This document shows, piece by piece, positions 29,301-48,803 of a DNA stretch of 64,000 nucleotides. The position numbers and the translations under genes are program-made. Position 1 is the stretch's first letter, and each line of letters starts with the position of its first letter. Below the pieces are notes generated by a model. It had not been told where the DNA came from, did no database searches, and worked only from the letters and a program-made list of their open reading frames with translations. The DNA lies in assembly GCA_030620115.1 (NCBI GenBank), contig JAUXFG010000002.1, forward strand, positions 1 through 64,000. The letters run 5' to 3'. Origin of the DNA: Candidatus Fermentibacterota bacterium. GTDB lineage: Bacteria > JAFGKV01.

Positions 29301-29318
29301 TTCCTTCCAGAGTCGAGT

Positions 29319-29470
29319 GGGGTGAGGGTACCAGGAAGAAGTCAAGGGAAAAGCTTGAGCTCCGATTTTGGCAATAATCCTCCGTTGCCGATCGATGTCG
29401 GTTTTCGAGAAACGAGTTGTTCAGGACCAGGCTCTCACGACACCAAGTGCTCGAGGACCGACGTAGTCCC
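29319..29470 (+). repeat. GGTACCAGGAAGAAGTC repeat, copy 1
   Basis: Shares about 110 near-identical bases with 47449-47595 (common blocks AGCTCCGATTTTG, CCTCCGTTGCCGAT and TCGGTTTTCGAGAAACGAGT). A 26-base piece of the same 5' end is at 44349-44374. The element begins GGGGT(C/G)AGGGTACC. No coding content recognised; it resembles the end of a RAYT element. Confidence 0.75.
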
Positions 29471-30518: not shown

Positions 30519-30582
30519 AGAATGTACTATGAGTATAAGGGGACCAATGTATCTCTTACTTCTAGGGTGCCAAGCCTGGTGT

Positions 30583-30694
30583 CTGATCTTTAATGTTTAA
30601 TATGCGAGATCCTCGTCTTGGGCTCACATCTTTATTCTCCAGTATTGTCTCGTGATATGCTCTGATATGTCTTGCCATCGATGGCTTTGTTGTT
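30583..30694 (+). repeat. Long dispersed repeat, copy 1
   Basis: About 110 bp beginning GTCTGATCTTTAATGTTTAA and including CGAGATCCTCG and ATGTCTTGCCATCGATGGCT, matched in direct orientation at 39587-39698. A shorter variant is near 39392-39420. Its start (GGTGTCTGATC) resembles RAYT-associated repeat ends. Confidence 0.75.
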
Positions 30695-30892: not shown

Positions 30893-31060
30893 GGAGCAGC
30901 TCGCAGAGATGTCGCTCAGATTGCCGAAAAGAAGCTTGGAATGAGCGCGACGGAAGTGGCACGCCACCTGGGAGTAAGCACTTCCTATATAAGCAGGATA
31001 GTAGCGAAAGGAACAATCAGTCAAACAGCGCAAGAAATCGTCGGGCAGTGGGATTCATAA
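30893..31060 (+). pseudogene. C-terminal fragment of a REP-associated tyrosine transposase
   Basis: An open reading without a start, reading RRDVAQIAEKKLGMSATEVA then RHLGVSTSYISRIVAKGTIS and ending GQWDS-stop (31058-31060). This matches the helix-turn-helix tail of RAYT proteins and aligns with the tail of the damaged RAYT at 40059-40756 (RHLGVTTSCVNRHVATGEMS). The catalytic domain is missing, replaced by the MITE copy at 30710-30892. Confidence 0.75.
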
Positions 31061-31064
31061 GTTA

Positions 31065-31116
31065 CATTCGGTACCAACGTCCCCTATATACGTTCGGTAC
31101 CATCGTCCCATAGATA
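31065..31116. repeat. Tandem pair of 26-bp RAYT end-like units
   Basis: CATTCGGTACCAACGTCCCC plus TATATA is followed directly by CGTTCGGTACCATCGTCCCA plus TAGATA. The AACGTCCCC block is the same as at the right ends of the RAYT elements near 40.8, 44.5 and 45.7 kb. It lies five bases after the RAYT fragment stop. Confidence 0.7.
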
Positions 31117-32741: not shown

Positions 32742-33031
32742 GTTGGTATGGTTTGCGGATGAGTATCCGGGGGGATATCCGGGACGTCTATGAAATCAGA
32801 ACGTTCGCTTCTCAAGATGAAGATCGCGTTCCTTGACCAACTGCTCTCCGCAGGCGATCGCCTTGCGGATCGCGGAAGATCTTCCACCGATCTATCCCCC
32901 GAAAGATGATATGTGCAATGCACCAGCATCAGGAGCGTCTATCCGTCCAGTTCATGGCCTTATGCCAATGTATGACCCTCTCCAACTCAGAATGACAAGG
33001 AATAATTTCATGAACGTCCCCTAACCCTTTG

Positions 33032-39231: not shown

Positions 39232-39280
39232 GGCAAATGGGGCAAATGGGGGACGTTGCTGAAATTAGGACTTTCTTGGG
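39232..39280 (+). repeat. Solo left end of the GGGGGACGTTGCTG RAYT element
   Basis: GGCAAATGG (39232-39240) then GGCAAATGGGGGACGTTGCT and GAAATTAGGACTTTCTTGGG. Identical in layout to the left end of the element at 45391-45681, but followed by unrelated sequence with no right end nearby. It begins 17 bases after the tolC-type gene stop. Confidence 0.75.
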
Positions 39281-39438
39281 GGCGGGTTGCATGTTAGATC
39301 GGGTCCATGCCTAGATCATCACGGATAGACGCGCCCGGCGCCCTGCACTCCGCCGGCAGTCGGATCTTCGATATTGGCTCCTGGCGAAGTCCGATATATC
39401 TTGGCATCGATGGATTGGGGCTTGTCCAGGAATAACCT

Positions 39439-39530
39439 TGACTCGGACTTCTCACCAACTATCTGCTGGCAGCGTCGGATCTGGCAGCGCCTGCTTTCCG
39501 CCAGCTGACGGACTTCGTCAGCCTCCTCGA
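39439..39530 (-). repeat. MITE-like repeat, copy 4 (truncated)
   Basis: CTCGGACTTCTCACCAACT followed by sequence matching the reverse complement of 54150-54256, including GCCTGCTTTCCGCCAGCTG. The distal terminal repeat is missing. Confidence 0.65.
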
Positions 39531-39586
39531 TCGGCCGGCTGGCTGCTGGGTCGGGCTGGGTCGGGGTCAACGGGCTCGGTCGCGGT

Positions 39587-39698
39587 CAGATCTTTAATGT
39601 TTAATATTCGAGATCCTCGGCTTCTCCTCTCATCTTTAATTGTTTCTATTGGCTGGTGATGTGCCCCGATATGTCTTGCCATCGATGGCTTTGTTACC
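39587..39698 (+). repeat. Long dispersed repeat, copy 2
   Basis: Matches 30583-30694 in the same orientation (TCAGATCTTTAATGTTTAAT, CGAGATCCTCGG, ATGTCTTGCCATCGATGGCT). With copy 1 it brackets about 9 kb carrying the MATE and RND efflux genes. Confidence 0.75.
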
Positions 39699-39801
39699 GG
39701 TGTATTGATGCACTGATGCCCAGAGCACATCAGAGATCATTGCCAAAGAGGCATAGATCTAATCACAAGTTGACTCGATATCTTCGCCTTCTACCATCCG
39801 T

Positions 39802-39894
39802 GAAGTCCTATCTGATGAAGATCGCGTATCCCCCGAACATCAGGATCGTTGCCCGCTAAATCTCTAGTAAATCCATGGATTTACTAGAGATTTA
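39802..39894 (+). repeat. Repeat ending in a 38-bp perfect palindrome, copy 1
   Basis: About 55 bases (GAAGTCCTATCTGATGAAGA onwards, including CCCCCGAACATCA) precede a perfect inverted repeat at 39857-39894, whose half is TAAATCTCTAGTAAATCC and whose centre is CCATGG. The whole unit recurs at 48278-48369 with the palindrome unchanged. In RNA it would be an 18-19 bp stem. Confidence 0.85.
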
Positions 39895-39978
39895 TCCCAG
39901 CACCGAAACGGACCGGGGTCAGTATTCTGTATTGATGTCAAGTCGCCCGATTCTGGACATTATGCCGTGCGTGAGAAT

Positions 39979-40784
39979 TTAGGGGACGTTGGTGCAGAAA
40001 GTGCTTGAGGCAGGAAAGACGAGGCTGATATTCGGAGCATTGTGGCAAGAGGACCACGTTGGGACTGCCCCGGAACACTCCACTCCACCGGTTGTCGGAT
40101 CTCCGACATGTAATGGCTCATAGCATCGACCGGCTGAAGATATTTCGGGCAAAGAAGGACTATGAAGATTTCCTTGATCGATTGGAGATCATAGTCGAAG
40201 ACGACAAGCTTCGTGTGTATGCGTGGGCTCTTATTCCGAATCACACACATCTCCTAGTTCGCAGTGGTCCGAAGCCCTTGTCTGCAGCCATGCGCAAATT
40301 GATGACCGGGTATGCGGTATCGTACAATCTGCGGCGCAAACGTCACGGGCATGTATATGGTCGGAGGTATTGGGACTCCGACGTCGGAAGGAGCGGATGG
40401 CATCGGACAGCCGCATCTTGGGGAGCGGGGAGTTTGTAGAAGCGATGCTGCGTGATGTTGAGGAACGACAAGCCGACAGCCTGAGGTTGCGACGCGCTGG
40501 AATCGGCCTCCACGAGATAGTGGAGGCGGTAGCGAGGCATCGTGGATTAGAGGAAGAAGAGGTCATTTCCGGAGGACGACGGGTCATAACTGAAGCGCGC
40601 AACGACATATGTCAGTTGGCAGTGAAGCGACTCGGGTACAGCGGAGCGGAAGTTGCCCGTCATCTTGGCGTGACGACATCGTGTGTCAATAGACACGTGG
40701 CAACGGGTGAGATGAGTTTCGTAGCCCAATCGATTATAGATTCATGGTCATCATAATGCACTTTCTGTAACAACGTCCCCTGAA
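39979..40784 (+). mobile_element. RAYT element with terminal inverted repeats
   Basis: Left end TTAGGGGACGTTGGTGCAGA plus AAGTGC (39979-40004), right end GCACTTTCTGTAACAACGTC plus CCC (40758-40780), complementary apart from a few mismatches. Between them lies one defective RAYT gene. REP-associated transposases are domesticated relatives of IS200/IS605 HUH transposases that act on flanking palindromes. Confidence 0.7.
40059..40756 (+). pseudogene. REP-associated tyrosine transposase (Y1_Tnp/RAYT), internally deleted
   Basis: The N-terminal part (frame from 40059) has the Y1 transposase core: RHVMAHSIDRLKIFRAKKDY, the HUH metal site in ALIPNHTHLLVRSG, and the helix with the candidate nucleophile tyrosine (KLMTGYAVSYNLRRKRHGHV). 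At about 40368-40385 the reading jumps to another frame, continuing RRRKERMASDSRILGSGEFV and the C-terminal HTH RLGYSGAEVARHLGVTTSCV, ending at 40756. The segment normally between (the YKS...ELVRYIHLNPLRA region, roughly 100 residues) is absent. It cannot make a complete enzyme. Confidence 0.8.
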
Positions 40785-41058
40785 GTCAAATGGCTGGCGA
40801 TATGGGGTGGGTACTGTCGGCTGTCCTCTCCTTCCGCTGCCTGTAGGTGCGGGGTCGGATTGCCTTTCGGGGCCGGCGGCACGACCCATTCTGAAGGGGT
40901 TGTAGTTCTCGGAGTACTAGCATAATTTGGTAGGCTTCTGTTCGCAGCGGCCGGTTGGCTGTGGTACACTCAACGCGGTTGACCCGCCCTCCAGCCTTTG
41001 CAGAAAGATGCCCTGTCGTGGCTTAACGCTGCCACCACCTTTGCCGAGGAGGTCCCCC

Positions 41059-44000
41059 ATGCGCGCCGTCTTATTCGCTCTGGTTGTCGCGTTGCTCGTG
41101 AGCATCGCGGGCACTTCCATCGCCCAGCCCTCGTTGACCTTGGTACCTCCGGATCCGCAGGCCGACAGTTATTTCGGCCGCCGCCTTTGTACCCTCGGCT
41201 ACTTCGGCGGTGATCCTTCCGGTGATGGGGTGGTTGATCTGATCGTGACCGCCGAAAATCAGACCGCCGGTGCAGATGCGTCAGGGGCCGTCTTCCTGTT
41301 CGACGGCGCCACCGGAGCGCCCCTGTGTGCCTTTCGCTCGGATAACGCCGAGACGTGGGGAAACTTCGGGCACTCGGTCGGGGAAGTTCCGGATGCCAAC
41401 GGCGACGGATACGACGATTTCATCGTCGGTGCCTGGCGGGAAGACCATTCCGGAATCACCAACGCCGGCAGGGTCTACGTCTTCGATGGGGATGTCGATG
41501 CGCCCGTCTACACCCTGGTATCTCCCAACCCCGAAAGCGATGGGCGGTTTGCCTGGTCAGCGGGCTTCGCAGGCGACGTGAACAATGACGGCGACCCCGA
41601 CATCGTGGTGGGGGCCTACATCGAGGACGGTGGGGCCTCAAATTCCGGTCGCGCCTATGTCTTCGATGCCCAGACAGGCACGCTGCTGTGGACGTTGGTC
41701 TCGCCGAATCCCGAGGACACCGGCAGATTCGGCGATTCTGTCGCGGGCGCCGGCGATATCGATGACGATGGGTTCGATGATGTGATCATCGGAGCCAATT
41801 CCGAAGACGGCGGCACGTTCGAGGCAGGCCGCGCCTATGTGTTCGGTGGGCAGACCGGTTCCCTGATCCATACCCTCGTCTCTCCCAATCCTTCCATCAA
41901 CGGCCTCTTCGGTGTGGCAGTGTCTGGCGTGGGCGACGTCGACAATGACGGTTACGACGACGTGATCGTAGGAACGCAAGAAGCCCCCGGTGGGCTCTTG
42001 GGGGCAGGCAGGGCCTATGTGTTCAGCGGGCAGACCGGCTCGCTTCTCCACACCCTGGTCTCGCCCAATCCCGTGGAGTGGGGGTTCTTCGGTTCCGGTG
42101 TCATTGGGACCGGCGACATGAACAGTGATGGTCGGCCTGACATGGTCATCTCCGCCTCAACGGAGGACGGCGGCGCCACCGATGCCGGCAGGGTCTACGT
42201 GTTCAGCGGGATCGATGGCTCTCTCCTCAGGACCTTTGTCTCTCCCAATCCCGAAGTGGACGGCACCTTCGGTGCTTCCATCGCATCCGTACCCGATGTG
42301 AACAGCGACGGCTGCCCTGACCTGATGGTCGGTGCCTCCTACGAGGACGGCGGCGATAGCGACACCGGCAGGGCCTACTTGCTCAGCGGCAGCGACGGGG
42401 CACTGCTGTCCACCTTCGTATCGCCCAATCCGGAGAGTGGCGGAGACTTCGGCACCTCGGTATCCTCCATCGGAGATCTGAATGGCGATGGGTTTGCTGA
42501 TGCTTTGGTCGGCGCCCGTCTAGAGGACGGCGGCGCGGCCAATGCGGGGAGGGCCTACGTGTTCAGCGGCGCCGACGGCGCTCTCATCCATCCCATCGGG
42601 TCGCCCACCCCCGAGGCGAACGGGTTCTTCGGGCATGCCGCGTTCTCCGTGGGCGATGCCACGGCGGATGGGCTGGATGACTTCGTGATCGGCACCTACT
42701 ACGAGGATGGCGGCGGGGTTCTGGACGCCGGCAGGGTCTACTTCTTCGACGGCGATCTGGACGCCCCGCGGCTCACCTTGATCTCGCCCAATGCCCAGAC
42801 CAACAGCCGTTTCGGCTGCGCGGCAGCCGGCGCGGGCGATGTCGACAATGACGGCGATCCCGATATTGTCGTCGGCGCCTACGGCGAGACGGTCGGCGGT
42901 TCCACCGCTGCTGGACGGGTCTATCTCTTCGATGCGGGCACCGGCGCCTTGGTGCGGACGTTGGTCTCGCCGAACCCCGAATATGCCGGTCGGTTCGGAT
43001 GGTCGGTCGCCGGGACCGGCGATGTCGACGACGACGGCTACGACGACGTGGTCATCGGCGCAGATAGCGAGGACGGCGGTGCCGGCGGGGCCGGCAGAGC
43101 GTATGTGTTCAGCGGGCAGACCGGCGGCGTGCTCTACACCCTGGTTTCTCCGAACCCGGTTGGCAGCGGCGGGTTCGGCTCGCACGTGTCGGGAGCGGGC
43201 GACGTCGACGATGACGGATACGCCGACGTGATCGTCGGAGCCTCGGAGCCCCCCGGAGGGCTCTCAGGGGCCGGCAGAGCCTATGTGTTCAGCGGGCAGA
43301 CCGGGAGCATCCTCTACACCCTGGTCTCGCCGAACCCGGAGGAGTGGGGCTCCTTCGGAGCTTCGGCCGCCTGCGTAGGCGACATCGACAATGACGGCTA
43401 CGATGACGTGGTCGTGGGAGCGGGCGGAGAGAGCGGAGGAGAATCGGCGTCGGGGCGAGTCTACGTGTTCTCCGGTTCCACGGGGAATCTCCTGGCAACC
43501 CTTGTCTCGCCTGCCCCCGAGGAGGGCGGCCATTTCGGTGCGGCGGTGGCGGGGATCGGCGATCGCGACGGCGACGGGTTTGACGACTTGATGATCGGGG
43601 CGCTCTACGAGGACGGAGGCGCCACGGATTCAGGACGAGCGTATGTCTACAGCGGCACGGTCGTACCGGTCGAACTGGCTCTGTTTGAGGCATTCCCGAC
43701 AACGGACAGGGCAGTATCGCTGCGATGGACCACCGCCAGCGAACAAGATAACCTTGGCTTCTTGATCTACCGGGCTGACGGAGAGCATGCACCGCGGCGT
43801 CTCATTACCTCGGACATAATACCGGGCGCAGGCACCTCCTCAGCCACGAACTCCTACGAGTATGTGGACCATGTGCCGGGCCCCGGAACCTATCTCTACT
43901 GGCTCGACCAGGTGGACATGGGCGGTGCGACCACGACCTATGGGCCCATCCGTGCAGTCGTGAAACCCGACGGCCTGGCCATCGATGGGCTTCGGCCGAA

Positions 44001-44238
44001 CCCGGCGATTCGAGACGTCCGTGTCACGCTCATGATCCCCGACGACGCGTCGACGCCTGCATGCCTGGCGCTGTACGACTTCGCAGGCCGGGAGGTCGTG
44101 ATCCTTCGGGATGATCTCGTCAGTGGTGTCCACGAGATCGAGTGCGCGATCCCGGATGACATCGCCGCGGGCGCCTACCGGATGATGGTCCGGACTGACA
44201 AGAGCGCGGCAGCACTGCCGTTGGTCATCGCCAGGTAG
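41059..44238 (+). CDS. Secreted FG-GAP (integrin-alpha-like) beta-propeller protein, 14 repeats
   Basis: 1059 residues from the ATG at 41059, which follows GGAGGT and opens a signal peptide (MRAVLFALVVALLVSIAGTSIA). Fourteen FG-GAP repeats of about 61-64 residues follow, each with FGxSV...GD, a DxDxDG calcium loop (DVDNDGYDD) and (V/I)IVGA...EDGG...GRAYVF. Repeats 2-5 resemble repeats 9-12 more than their neighbours (shared FDGDxDAP, APGG/PPGG, PVEWG/PEEWG), giving a seven-repeat higher-order period, as expected for two seven-bladed propellers. The end (LRPNPAIRDVRVTLMI...ALYDFAGREVVIL) is a FlgD-like/type-A sorting domain. Probably a calcium-binding surface or secreted adhesion protein. It lies beside a broken RAYT element and ends at a strong hairpin. 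Confidence 0.9.
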   Translation: MRAVLFALVVALLVSIAGTSIAQPSLTLVPPDPQADSYFGRRLCTLGYFGGDPSGDGVVDLIVTAENQTAGADASGAVFLFDGATGAPLCAFRSDNAETWGNFGHSVGEVPDANGDGYDDFIVGAWREDHSGITNAGRVYVFDGDVDAPVYTLVSPNPESDGRFAWSAGFAGDVNNDGDPDIVVGAYIEDGGASNSGRAYVFDAQTGTLLWTLVSPNPEDTGRFGDSVAGAGDIDDDGFDDVIIGANSEDGGTFEAGRAYVFGGQTGSLIHTLVSPNPSINGLFGVAVSGVGDVDNDGYDDVIVGTQEAPGGLLGAGRAYVFSGQTGSLLHTLVSPNPVEWGFFGSGVIGTGDMNSDGRPDMVISASTEDGGATDAGRVYVFSGIDGSLLRTFVSPNPEVDGTFGASIASVPDVNSDGCPDLMVGASYEDGGDSDTGRAYLLSGSDGALLSTFVSPNPESGGDFGTSVSSIGDLNGDGFADALVGARLEDGGAANAGRAYVFSGADGALIHPIGSPTPEANGFFGHAAFSVGDATADGLDDFVIGTYYEDGGGVLDAGRVYFFDGDLDAPRLTLISPNAQTNSRFGCAAAGAGDVDNDGDPDIVVGAYGETVGGSTAAGRVYLFDAGTGALVRTLVSPNPEYAGRFGWSVAGTGDVDDDGYDDVVIGADSEDGGAGGAGRAYVFSGQTGGVLYTLVSPNPVGSGGFGSHVSGAGDVDDDGYADVIVGASEPPGGLSGAGRAYVFSGQTGSILYTLVSPNPEEWGSFGASAACVGDIDNDGYDDVVVGAGGESGGESASGRVYVFSGSTGNLLATLVSPAPEEGGHFGAAVAGIGDRDGDGFDDLMIGALYEDGGATDSGRAYVYSGTVVPVELALFEAFPTTDRAVSLRWTTASEQDNLGFLIYRADGEHAPRRLITSDIIPGAGTSSATNSYEYVDHVPGPGTYLYWLDQVDMGGATTTYGPIRAVVKPDGLAIDGLRPNPAIRDVRVTLMIPDDASTPACLALYDFAGREVVILRDDLVSGVHEIECAIPDDIAAGAYRMMVRTDKSAAALPLVIAR

Positions 44239-44277
44239 CGGCATCGCGACCCAGATCAGCACGACCTCATCCTCGGC

Positions 44278-44305
44278 GGTGAGGGGGCTAATCGGCCCCC
44301 TCACC
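44278..44305 (+). terminator. Rho-independent terminator of the FG-GAP gene
   Basis: 11-bp perfect stem GGTGAGGGGGC/GCCCCCTCACC with loop TAATCG, followed by GTTTCGT, 40 bases after the stop codon. Confidence 0.8.
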
Positions 44306-44380
44306 GTTTCGTCCTGCCTCGCATCGCGAGTGGAAGATGGGCACAAGTGGGGTCAGGGTACCAGGAAGAAGTCAACGGGG

Positions 44381-44514
44381 GCAAATGGGGGACGTTGCTG
44401 AAACTCGATCAATCGTCGGTCAGCAAGGCCGCTCGGCAGGGAGAGCAACTCTGCCGGGAGCTGGGAGTCACGCTTGAGCCCCAAGAGTCCTAATTTCAGC
44501 AACGTCCCCCATTT
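44381..44514 (+). mobile_element. Collapsed RAYT element: left end fused to C-terminal codons
   Basis: Left end GCAAATGGGGGACGTTGCTG and right end CAGCAACGTCCCCCATTT are inverted repeats. Between them a 33-codon open stretch reads LLKLDQSSVSKAARQGEQLC and RELGVTLEPQES-stop (TAA 44490-44492), the tail of the same RAYT type as at 45391-45681. GTTGCTGAAA occurs both in the element end and at the internal LLK codons, so the gene body appears lost by deletion between these 10-bp matches. Confidence 0.75.
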
Positions 44515-44541
44515 TTTATCCTAAGAACGATTGAGCCCCAG

Positions 44542-44559
44542 GGTGAGAAGTCCGGGCTA
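44542..44559. repeat. MITE-like repeat, copy 5 (single arm)
   Basis: GGTGAGAAGTCCGGGCTA only, identical to the complement of the consensus left arm; the rest of the element is missing. Confidence 0.6.
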
Positions 44560-44593
44560 ATACTTCGAGGTTACGATTGCAATCAGTTTTAGC

Positions 44594-44622
44594 TTGCATT
44601 TGCAAACATTCTATGTTATCAT
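44594..44622 (+). promoter_or_regulatory. Probable hicAB promoter
   Basis: TTGCAT (44594-44599), 17-base spacer, TATCAT (44617-44622). Transcription would begin near 44629-44630, coinciding with the hicA ATG, so the message may be leaderless. The spacer contains the palindrome TTTGCAAA-like ATTTGCAAAC, a possible operator. Confidence 0.45.
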
Positions 44623-44629
44623 TCCATTC

Positions 44630-44884
44630 ATGAATGTGAAGCACAGAAAAACACTTGCAGCTATCTACACAGATCCGATAAACGGCAATATTGAATGGGG
44701 CAGGATTGAAGCTCTTTTTCTCCATCTTGGTTGTCGAGTCATTGAAGGAACCGGTTCAAGTGTTACCTTTGAGAAAGATGGCATCCGGTCTTATTTTCAC
44801 CGACCACATCCTGCCAAGGAAGCACTCAGATACCGCGTCAAAGATGCCCGTGCATTTCTTACAACCCTAGGAGTCAAGCCATGA
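44630..44884 (+). CDS. hicA: HicA-family mRNA interferase toxin
   Basis: 84 residues from the ATG at 44630. The sequence has the dsRBD-like HicA pattern IEWGRIEALFLHLGCRVIEGTGSSVTFEKDGIRSYFHRPH, with the catalytic His in the FHRPHPAKE region. HicA cleaves mRNA in the cytoplasm unless bound by HicB. The variant with an N-terminal RKTLAAIYTDPINGNIEW leader is common in chromosomal copies. The stop overlaps the hicB start (ATGA). The AT-rich upstream region contrasts with the surrounding sequence. No clear Shine-Dalgarno is present. Confidence 0.88.
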   Translation: MNVKHRKTLAAIYTDPINGNIEWGRIEALFLHLGCRVIEGTGSSVTFEKDGIRSYFHRPHPAKEALRYRVKDARAFLTTLGVKP

Positions 44885-45216
44885 AGGGAATAAGCTACAA
44901 AGGCTACTCTGCCCACATAGAATTCGACCCGGAGGATCGCATTCTTGTTGGTCACATCATCGGCATACGCGATGTCGTTGGCTTCCACGGAAAATCTGTA
45001 AAGGAGCTTGAGAGAGCCTTTCATGAAGCCGTTGATGATTATCTCGCAGCGTGTAGGGAGCTTGGTCAAGAACCCAATAAGCCCTATTCCGGTAACCTTA
45101 TGCTGCGGGTCCCAACTGAAGTTCATGCTGCTGTTGCAGCAGCCGCCGAAGCCAATGGGAAGAGTATCAATCAATGGGCAGCTAGAGTTCTTGCGTCAGC
45201 AAGTCATGCTCATTGA
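44881..45216 (+). CDS. hicB: HicB-family antitoxin
   Basis: 111 residues. N-terminal partial RNase H-like domain (YKGYSAHIEFDPEDRILVGHIIGIRDVVGFHGKSVKELERAFHEAVDDYL) and C-terminal ribbon-helix-helix DNA-binding domain (GNLMLRVPTEVHAAVAAAAEANGKSINQWAARVL). It neutralises HicA and, through the RHH domain, should repress the hicAB promoter. Coupled to hicA by a four-base overlap. Confidence 0.9.
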   Translation: MKGISYKGYSAHIEFDPEDRILVGHIIGIRDVVGFHGKSVKELERAFHEAVDDYLAACRELGQEPNKPYSGNLMLRVPTEVHAAVAAAAEANGKSINQWAARVLASASHAH

Positions 45217-45390
45217 CAAATGGAAAGGTCTGCAATACTGCGCTGTAACGAGGGGAACCGGGCTTGCATATTTGGTGAAACGATTGAATTCCTAATAATT
45301 GGCATTGGCTCATGACGAGCCCTGATGTTTCTGTGGATTTCGGCCTGTGAACGCGTGGGGTCCGCATTCCGTAACGGGCAAATGGGGGAC

Positions 45391-45681
45391 GGCAAATGGG
45401 GGACGTTGCTGGAATTAGGACTTTCTTGGGGCGGGCGACTTGGGCTTTTGACGTGTTGGTAGAGGACATCTACGGAGGTGGAAAATCGAGACCACAAGCC
45501 AAGGCACGCAGTCTGTTCTGTTACTGGGCGACTCGCGAGCTGGGGATAACAGCGACAGTTGCTGAAACTCGATCAATCGTCGGTCAGCAAGGCCGCTCGC
45601 CGGGGAGAGTATCTCTCCCGGGAACTGGGAGTCACGCTTGAGCCCCAAAAGTCCTTATTCCAGCAACGTTCCCCATTTGCC
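45391..45681 (+). mobile_element. Defective RAYT element with 40-bp terminal inverted repeats
   Basis: Left arm 45391-45432 (GGCAAATGGGGGACGTTGCT...TTCTTGGGGC) and right arm 45642-45681 (GCCCCAAAAGTCC...CATTTGCC) are nearly perfect complements. The interior keeps a RAYT tail, KARSLFCYWATRELGITATV in one frame and LLKLDQSSVSKAARRGEYLS in another, so a one- or two-base indel lies near 45550. A second, outer pair GGGGTCCGCATTCCG (45349-45363) and CGGAATGCTGACCCC (45770-45784) encloses it. Confidence 0.8.
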
Positions 45682-45844
45682 CTCATTTGCCTTGAACTAC
45701 CTATCCGACGAGCTAGCGATATACAAGCGTTTATTCCCTGAGATCTGTGAAAAAGTCCAAAGACCAATGCGGAATGCTGACCCCCGATCACGATCACGGA
45801 TTCTTCGAATCAGCCGCGAGGGAAAGGTCGACCGTGCTCTCGTG

Positions 45845-47269: not shown

Positions 47270-47448
47270 GGGGCACCTCCCGGCGTCACTCCGCCCATGA
47301 GATGATGAACACAACCCCAGGCTCACCTCCGTTAACAATAAAGCGGAAAGACGACGGAATGGCAACTGATCCACAACCCGGAATCCACGACGTTGAGAGT
47401 GTTGTTCTCGGGCGTCGGCATCGACAAGTGCCAGGGGGTCAACAGCCT

Positions 47449-47595
47449 GGGGTCAGGGTACCAGGAAGAAGTCAGGGGAAAGCCGCGAGCTCCGATTTTG
47501 ACAATAACCCTCCGTTGCCGATTTGTGTCGGTTTTCGAGAAACGAGTGGATCAGAACCAGACTGTCAGTTCGGTGAGTGCCGGGGCGACGTAGCT
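47449..47595 (+). repeat. GGTACCAGGAAGAAGTC repeat, copy 2
   Basis: GGGGTCAGGGTACCAGGAAG followed by the blocks shared with 29319-29470. Preceded at 47434 by a further GGGGTCAACAGCCTG start. Confidence 0.75.
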
Positions 47596-48160: not shown

Positions 48161-48342
48161 CGGAACAGGTCTTGTTGCGGATTCCTCAATCCGTTTGGGC
48201 TTCCTTGCCGTCCTTCGAAGTTCGGGGGGAAATCTTGGGAAAATCGACAAGGCTCCCGATGAAGTTTCAGGTCAGAGAAGTCCTATCTGATGGAGATCGC
48301 GCATCCCCCGAACATCAAAATCGTTGTCCGGTAAATCTCTAG
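48157..48342 (+). pseudogene. Decayed PemK/MazF-like toxin reading frame
   Basis: 61 codons beginning MTEQVLLRIPQSVWASLP at the ATGA overlap with the antitoxin. VLLRIPQS resembles the strand-1 opening of PemK-type toxins, and a second frame (LGFLAVLRSSGGNLGKIDK) resembles the following RPAVVLR region, implying a frameshift near 48200. Beyond about 48278 the frame is made of the palindrome-bearing repeat. Toxin length would be about 110 residues, so at least half is lost. Confidence 0.4.
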
Positions 48343-48369
48343 TAAATCCATGGATTTACTAGAGATTTA
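48278..48369 (+). repeat. Repeat ending in a 38-bp perfect palindrome, copy 2
   Basis: GAAGTCCTATCTGATGGAGA onwards matches 39802-39894; the palindrome at 48332-48369 is identical to that at 39857-39894. Only the upstream half shows substitutions. Confidence 0.85.
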
Positions 48370-48803
48370 TTCCAATACCAGAATCCGGGTAGCGCCTCAT
48401 TGGCACCGCGAGCTGGGCATACCGACAATAGACTCTCAGCTCGACCACGTTTCTCCATCTCACCATAGCCTTCCACATGCGTGCCAGCCCTTGCGAAATC
48501 GGGGTCAACAGGAGAACTTGGCACGAGTTTTGATCCCAGTCAGACGACAGTGATAAAGAGAGAAGCCAAGTCCGGATTCCTTATATTGGGGTTCGCACAG
48601 GAATAGGATCGCAGGCAGGGAAAAATCACAGGCAGGGACGCCTGCGCCACTGAGCTGCGCCACTGAGCTGCCCCACTTGGCAAGGCCGAAAGATGGGACA
48701 TCATAATGGGAGATTATTCCCGAGCGGATCTTGGCACGCATATTCGGACATGGACCGGGGTGGTTTTGGGCCACACCAGATTAAGTCATAGGAGGATGAT
48801 GTG
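48370..48803. other. Intergenic region upstream of ppdK
   Basis: About 430 bp. It holds a GGGGTCAACAGG start (48501), the sequence GGTTCGCACAGGAATAGG (48592-48609) also found at the dctQ stop, and a short tandem duplication CCACTGAGCTGCG/CCACTGAGCTGCC (about 48647-48672). No gene seen; the ppdK promoter should lie here but I cannot place it. Confidence 0.5.

Follow-up and report, generated by a model that had tools for sequence, protein, structure and literature searches.

Relics of transposable elements in the window

The window analysed here, a stretch of 64,000 nucleotides from contig JAUXFG010000002.1 in the 4.1-Mb assembly of a Candidatus Fermentibacterota bacterium (G000:C241), holds within 15 kb a layered, partly nested cluster: four relics derived from transposases, one solo end and additional ends with GGGG(A/T)C tips. 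Judged from its sequence, the region is probably a graveyard of TIRtrons, known bacterial transposons that have received little study; they measure about 1 kb and carry one TIRYT gene between two terminal inverted repeats (TIRs) of about 27 bp. The ends were sorted into families by their continuations (F1 GGGGACGTTGCTGAAATTAGGAC, F2 GGGGACGTTGGTGCAGAAAGTGC, F3 GGGGACGTTGGTACCGAATGTAAC, F4 GGGGACGTTCATGAAATTATTCC, F5 GGGGTCAGATCTTTAATGTTTAAT and F8 GGGGTCAGCATTCCGCATTG).

The F2 relic (39982..40780, + strand) retains both TIRs (left 39982-40004, right 40758-40780), with an HUH half at 40107-40394, a frameshift and a C-terminal helix-turn-helix (HTH) half at 40406-40753. PF01797 matches the HUH half above the cut-off (window 40107-40391, E 3.1e-6), the C-terminal half resembles the Pfam families HTH_23 (0.0011) and Bac_DnaA_C (0.0046), and the two halves give profile matches with E 2.9e-28 and 1.5e-14. 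Its best relatives, L187 and L188, come from genomes of other families and are 57-59% identical to it over 88 aa (the HUH half 59% to L187) and 49-55% over the HTH half. The end left of L187 reads GGGGACGGTGGTGCAGGAAGTGC and that right of L188 GGGGACGTTGGTGCAGAAGGTGC, almost the F2 end of the window; the opposite ends of both elements were lost at contig ends.

In the F3 relic (30895..31084, + strand) a C-terminal HTH remnant (30895-31057) is followed by the right TIR (31064-31084, reading AACGTCCCC on the + strand), and blastx and tblastn match it to TIRYTs of the GGGGAC lineage, L187 (62% over 40 aa) and L188. The F1 relic at 45399..45679 (+ strand), which lacks the catalytic half, comprises a left TIR, a C-terminal HTH remnant and a right TIR; it matches L089/L190 in tblastn (47% over 43 aa) and contains an inverted repeat (I2) of 92% over 37 nt. 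Both relics are thus HTH tails and ends only, and both match proteins of the GGGGAC lineage. Protein similarity links the GGGGACGTT families of the window to this GGGGAC-tipped lineage. Since an F8 end pair (45357..45784; GGGGTCCGCATTCCG at 45357 on the + strand, the F8 sequence at 45784 on the - strand) encloses the F1 relic, the latter is a nested insertion. A second F1 copy, 122 bp long (44388..44509, + strand), has the form of an internal-deletion derivative that joins the left TIR to the HTH tail and the right TIR, and is 92% identical to 45558-45678, the distal part of the larger F1 relic. Its junction lies at GTTGCTGAAA, a 10-mer common to TIR and interior and present at 45558 in the larger relic. 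BLAST searches of five relic stretches gave no significant match of its own for this short copy, and showed TIRYT pieces to be encoded in the other four (r30895, r40107, r40405, r45391). An earlier note on this DNA had described layered relics resembling transposases associated with repetitive extragenic palindromes (REPs), the RAYTs (REP-associated tyrosine transposases). All the sites that it quoted are present, and both the Y1/HUH likeness of the relics and their layering are borne out.

Intact elements and relatives

Two intact TIRtrons with GGGGTCAG tips occur in the same genome, L001 (ends GGGGTCAGGCATTGCTAAC) and L002 (F5 ends). Both have a C-terminal Bac_DnaA_C/HTH extension (1.2e-6 and 1.5e-10, respectively), and inverted repeats around the gene were found for these two and for the window relic at 39982-40780. 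PF01797 scored above the cut-off in L001, L002 and L003. The last of these (G000:C200) is a Y1 gene of another kind, encoding 187 aa without an HTH and flanked by perfect palindromic REPs with a GTAG foot; the genome harbours a classical REPtron in addition to its TIRtrons. Sixteen F5 ends genome-wide include inverted TIR dimers of about 62 bp at L354, L360 and L362, and a Y1 gene of the L003 kind also adjoins the dimer in L362.

In domain-wide searches, 166 of the 205 full-length genes with both flanks had a significant TIR, against none in shuffled controls. The residues H60, H62 and Y119 (the Y1/HUH residues and the catalytic tyrosine) are invariant. TIR-bearing relatives occur in genomes of many phyla, and a strong TIRtron transposase match was obtained in a quarter of the sampled genomes (96/386). 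Among 72,556 plasmid records there was one full-length TIRYT relative, and among 50,697 phage records one partial TIRYT match, with two partial or distant loci in viral contigs; plasmids and phages, having almost no relatives, were dropped as a source of empty sites. Congeneric genomes (G122/G385, with L317 and L318; G073/G215/G343, with L319, L321 and L322) each have one TIRYT-like gene with no detectable TIR; these genes are candidates for domesticated, vertically kept TIRYTs.

A constant tip and a doubled word

Identity between left and right ends persists to base 27 and then drops to background level. The consensus is GGGGTCAGGTCT followed by a TGACWTT-like word given twice, so that the 27-bp TIR reads as a constant 12-mer and two direct heptamers; elements of the GGGGAC lineage have 8- or 9-mers instead of the heptamers. 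Heptamer identity within an element at offset 7 is 0.50, as compared with 0.39 between elements (z 9.8). A weaker signal appears at offset 8 (z 5.2), where the GGGGAC elements peak, and in the F2-type end of L188 GGTGCA is repeated at 9. This second layer of the ends, a doubled word of 7-9 bp, had been missed by the earlier note. The TIRs are not DnaA boxes: a TTATCACA-like box is present in 1/159, and that identity was rejected.

Covariation was analysed by partial Mantel tests in 159 elements, taking bases 1-12 as the tip and bases 13-27 as the word. Tip divergence is correlated with that of the catalytic core (partial r 0.48, confidence interval (CI) 0.41-0.55) but not with that of the C-terminus (-0.03). 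Word divergence correlates with the C-terminus at 0.14, a little above its value for the core (0.10), and shows no relation to the linker (-0.02). A joint regression gives a loading of 0.176 for the word on the recognition helix and of 0.557 for the tip on the core; among close relatives only, the word correlates with the recognition helix at 0.33 (95% CI 0.25-0.41) and with the core at -0.01. The top word-associated columns include those aligned to DnaA H434, T436 and H439, and the columns equivalent to H434, T435, T436 and H439 are enriched for word association; H434, T435 and H439 are contacts to the DnaA box (PMC7561715). The C-terminal domain matches DnaA domain IV structures by profile (1j1v, 9e-11). 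In the predicted fold (predicted local distance difference test score 89.5), residues 1-190 match TnpA-REP (Z 16.4) and residues 230-320 match DnaA domain IV bound to a DnaA box (Z 17.8, root mean square deviation 1.0). These results suggest that the tip is matched to the cutting domain and the doubled word to the DnaA-like DNA-reading domain.

The right TIR also encodes the C-terminus of the transposase: the stop codon falls within it in 113/159 elements, 55 of which use the TGA of CTGACCCC, and coding constraint thus acts on part of the TIR. The doubled word might then be a by-product of low-complexity, A/T-rich coding ends, with shared ancestry explaining why it covaries with the HTH helix, phylogeny not being fully removable by covariation statistics. 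This explanation is improbable, as the offset signal is confined to 7 and 8 in position-matched permutations, and tip and word follow different domains, the word ignoring the linker.

Mobility and insertion sites

Near-identical elements stand at different sites: L273 and L368, 98% identical, share a genome, and L205 and L329, 95% identical, come from congeners. This bears only indirectly on active transposition by the TIRYT. The identity of copy pairs starts at the left tip or within a base of it. No target-site duplication was detected at lengths of 1-12 bp. The flanks show T|A or A|T junctions, and their outermost bases are complementary in excess of expectation (61% against 35%); this may mean that the target is palindromic or that the TIR extends slightly further.

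Could the TIR pairs and solo ends instead have ceased to be transposon ends and, having spread long ago, now serve domesticated TIRYTs as binding sites in the chromosome, whether as operators or in a structural role, the doubled word being a common autoregulatory operator at the promoter and end of the gene itself? The rarity of TIRYT relatives on plasmids and phages (a feature of domesticated RAYTs also), their few copies in most genomes and the prevalence of relics in the own genome would all agree with this. The different flanks of the near-identical elements do not, nor does identity that ends at the tips, the occurrence of the same site at both ends, or the resemblance of the 62-bp TIR pairs and internal-deletion copies to mobilised derivatives, and we consider domestication an unlikely source of these sites.

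It is least probable that the ends are degenerate REPs of the classical REP/RAYT kind, recognised as a single-strand hairpin along with a GGGG-type foot, for although the catalytic domain is closest to TnpA-REP and a few TIRs have self-complementary tips (e.g. GGGGTCAGACCCC in L085), the median folding z over the first 30 bases per end is about 0 in 159 TIRs, whereas the genuine REP beside L003 of the own genome gives -4.7, and the TIR consensus GGGGTCAGGTCTTGACTTTTGACATTT has no GTAG foot. The proposal in the earlier note that these were RAYTs of the REP type, with ends to be folded as single strands, accordingly gives way to long terminal inverted repeats that in general form no hairpins.

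End motifs in the genome and remaining features

The window contains nine copies of GGGGACGTT, where about 0.6 would be expected per 64 kb, and the genome 41, against 25 for the reversed control word. When 39 distinct sites were inspected, with coding or intergenic status judged from stop-free frames around them, 23 proved to belong to the longer end families F1-F4, mostly in short frames; the other 16 show no relation to these and sit for the most part in long open reading frames (ORFs), which makes them chance coding matches. The bare 8-mer GGGGTCAG shows no clear enrichment genome-wide (111 against 89 reversed), which makes the bare prefix unusable as a genome-wide test; an end is recognised by its continuation. 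Searched genome-wide with up to 3 mismatches against reversed controls, the long patterns gave 8 matches to 0 for F1, 16 to 0 for F5 and 4 to 0 for F8. Some of the GGGGTCA starts in the earlier note lack support. The GGGGTCAAC sites at 39563, 47435 and 48501 are in none of F1-F8 (no search was made for them) and may be chance.

Several further ends lie in the window. A solo end at 39249..39271 (+ strand) matches the F1 pattern exactly, and the F8 pattern search yielded a solo end, GGGGTCAGTATTCTGTATTG, at 39915..39934 (+ strand). An F5-type end (GCGGTCAGATCTTTAATGTTTAAT; 39582..39605, + strand) has the TIR of the intact L002, and the same sequence of about 130 nt follows both it and a second such end at 30578-30601. 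A solo F4 end (33013..33021, - strand), with another copy in the own genome at C104, adjoins what we take from our own reading to be an IS630 fragment. The start of an F7 repeat, GGGGTCAGGGTACCAGGAAGAAGTCA (44348..44374, + strand), is broken off just 5' of the F1 element. This repeat of about 120 nt occurs in 8 places genome-wide, with longer copies at 29318-29437 and 47448-47567, and no partner end was found for it. A 108-nt repeat, 90% identical between 39797-39904 and 48272-48379, holds a perfect 38-bp palindrome (TAAATCTCTAGTAAATCCATGGATTTACTAGAGATTTA) and is perhaps a miniature inverted-repeat transposable element. Between the F1 relics (44594-45216), two small ORFs resemble, in our own reading, a HicA/HicB-type toxin-antitoxin pair, and 40927-44238 is occupied by a large gene for a secreted-type protein with internal repeats of about 180 bp, which by eye we take to be FG-GAP/integrin-like.

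Proposed mechanism

A TIRtron graveyard whose ends have two parts is, taken as a whole, the likely explanation of the locus. The TIRYT would combine a Y1/HUH single-strand nuclease-ligase with a C-terminal DNA-binding domain like DnaA domain IV, and each TIR combines a constant tip (of GGGGTCAGGTCT or GGGGACGTT type) with two tandem family-specific words, each 7 bp long or, for the GGGGAC lineage, 8 or 9 bp. When the DNA is transiently single-stranded, both TIRs of one strand may anneal into a duplex of about 27 bp; the DnaA-like domains of a transposase dimer would bind and read the doubled word in this duplex, selecting the element to be moved, and the HUH domain would cut and rejoin beside the GGGG tip. 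Both parts persist in internally deleted copies and in minimal TIR-TIR pairs, which might be moved in trans, as REPINs are. We lean, by a narrow preference, towards the idea that TIRtron ends bear an address in two parts: an HUH tip that is universal, and a doubled word for a captured DnaA domain IV to read. On this idea, origin-recognition machinery was reused to endow every single-strand transposase with a specificity of its own, and tip and word evolve separately, each with its domain.

Several observations weigh against this interpretation. No TIR was detectable at 39 of the 205 full-length genes, and the DnaA domain was detectable in 22 of 30 relatives, hence not in all. The association of word and helix is modest and loses significance among the most divergent pairs, and the DnaA contact set was tested only after the ranking had been seen. 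Finally, in two copy pairs identity runs 5-8 nt beyond the right tip and not beyond the left, suggesting chemical ends that are asymmetric, as in IS200/IS605, although two pairs are too few. If the two-part address is correct, the specificity of an HUH transposase could be switched by exchanging one helix and one short word.

Comparison with known systems

The elements share the HUH/Y1 chemistry domain and the lack of target duplication with IS200/IS605 members (IS608, ISDra2). The ends of the latter are asymmetric subterminal hairpins, whereas those described here are TIRs, and no such hairpins were found in the first 30 bases of each end. With the RAYT/REPtron/REPIN systems they have in common a homologous catalytic domain and non-autonomous inverted end pairs in the genome. 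Those systems differ in their hairpin REPs with a GTAG foot, their shorter protein without a DnaA domain and their lack of long TIRs; a GTAG-footed, stable-hairpin REP beside the gene was seen only at L003, not at the TIRtrons.

The closest likeness is to the genes and elements named TIRYTs and TIRtrons by Di Nocera et al. 2013 (PMC3733652), in whose text a Y1/HUH gene is flanked by long TIRs, many with GGGGWSAS, and TIR families, dimers and clusters occur in some genomes. Our elements likewise have Y1_Tnp with HUH and the tyrosine, long TIRs, a GGGGWSAS-like motif and moderately abundant, often dimeric TIR families. In GGGGACGT of the window families the GGGGWS part fits this motif and the final AS does not. 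Quentin et al. 2018 (PMC6006769) place TIRYTs in TnpA-Y1 subclass 2.1, class 2 Y1 proteins with C-terminal Bac_DnaA_C or HTH tails, no REPs and GGGG[AT][CG]A[CG] TIRs, which the elements here resemble. In the literature searched, the term TIRYT occurred only in these two papers. The common GGGG(A/T)C tip with family-specific continuations, which the earlier note had attributed to several lineages, is real, intact GGGGTC- and GGGGAC-tipped elements being at hand; it is no new inference, as both papers had published the motif.

From a TIR consensus unlike the DnaA box, the text of PMC6006769 reasons that the tail possibly does not recognise the target, or else has evolved for a new one, and it leaves end recognition and the reason for a DnaA-like domain open; here the word inward of the tip is a candidate site, and its covariation with the helix offers a concrete, testable answer. 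The doubled word of 7-9 bp, the fixed 27-bp length, the layered relics and the covariation of tip and word with separate domains do not appear in the text of PMC3733652, and the make-up of the TIR from a constant 12-mer and a doubled word is new relative to the main text of PMC6006769 also. The relics at this locus form a new set, and the element type to which they belong is known; what the locus adds, as far as sequence statistics and predicted structure indicate, is the doubled word and its apparent link to the DnaA-like domain.

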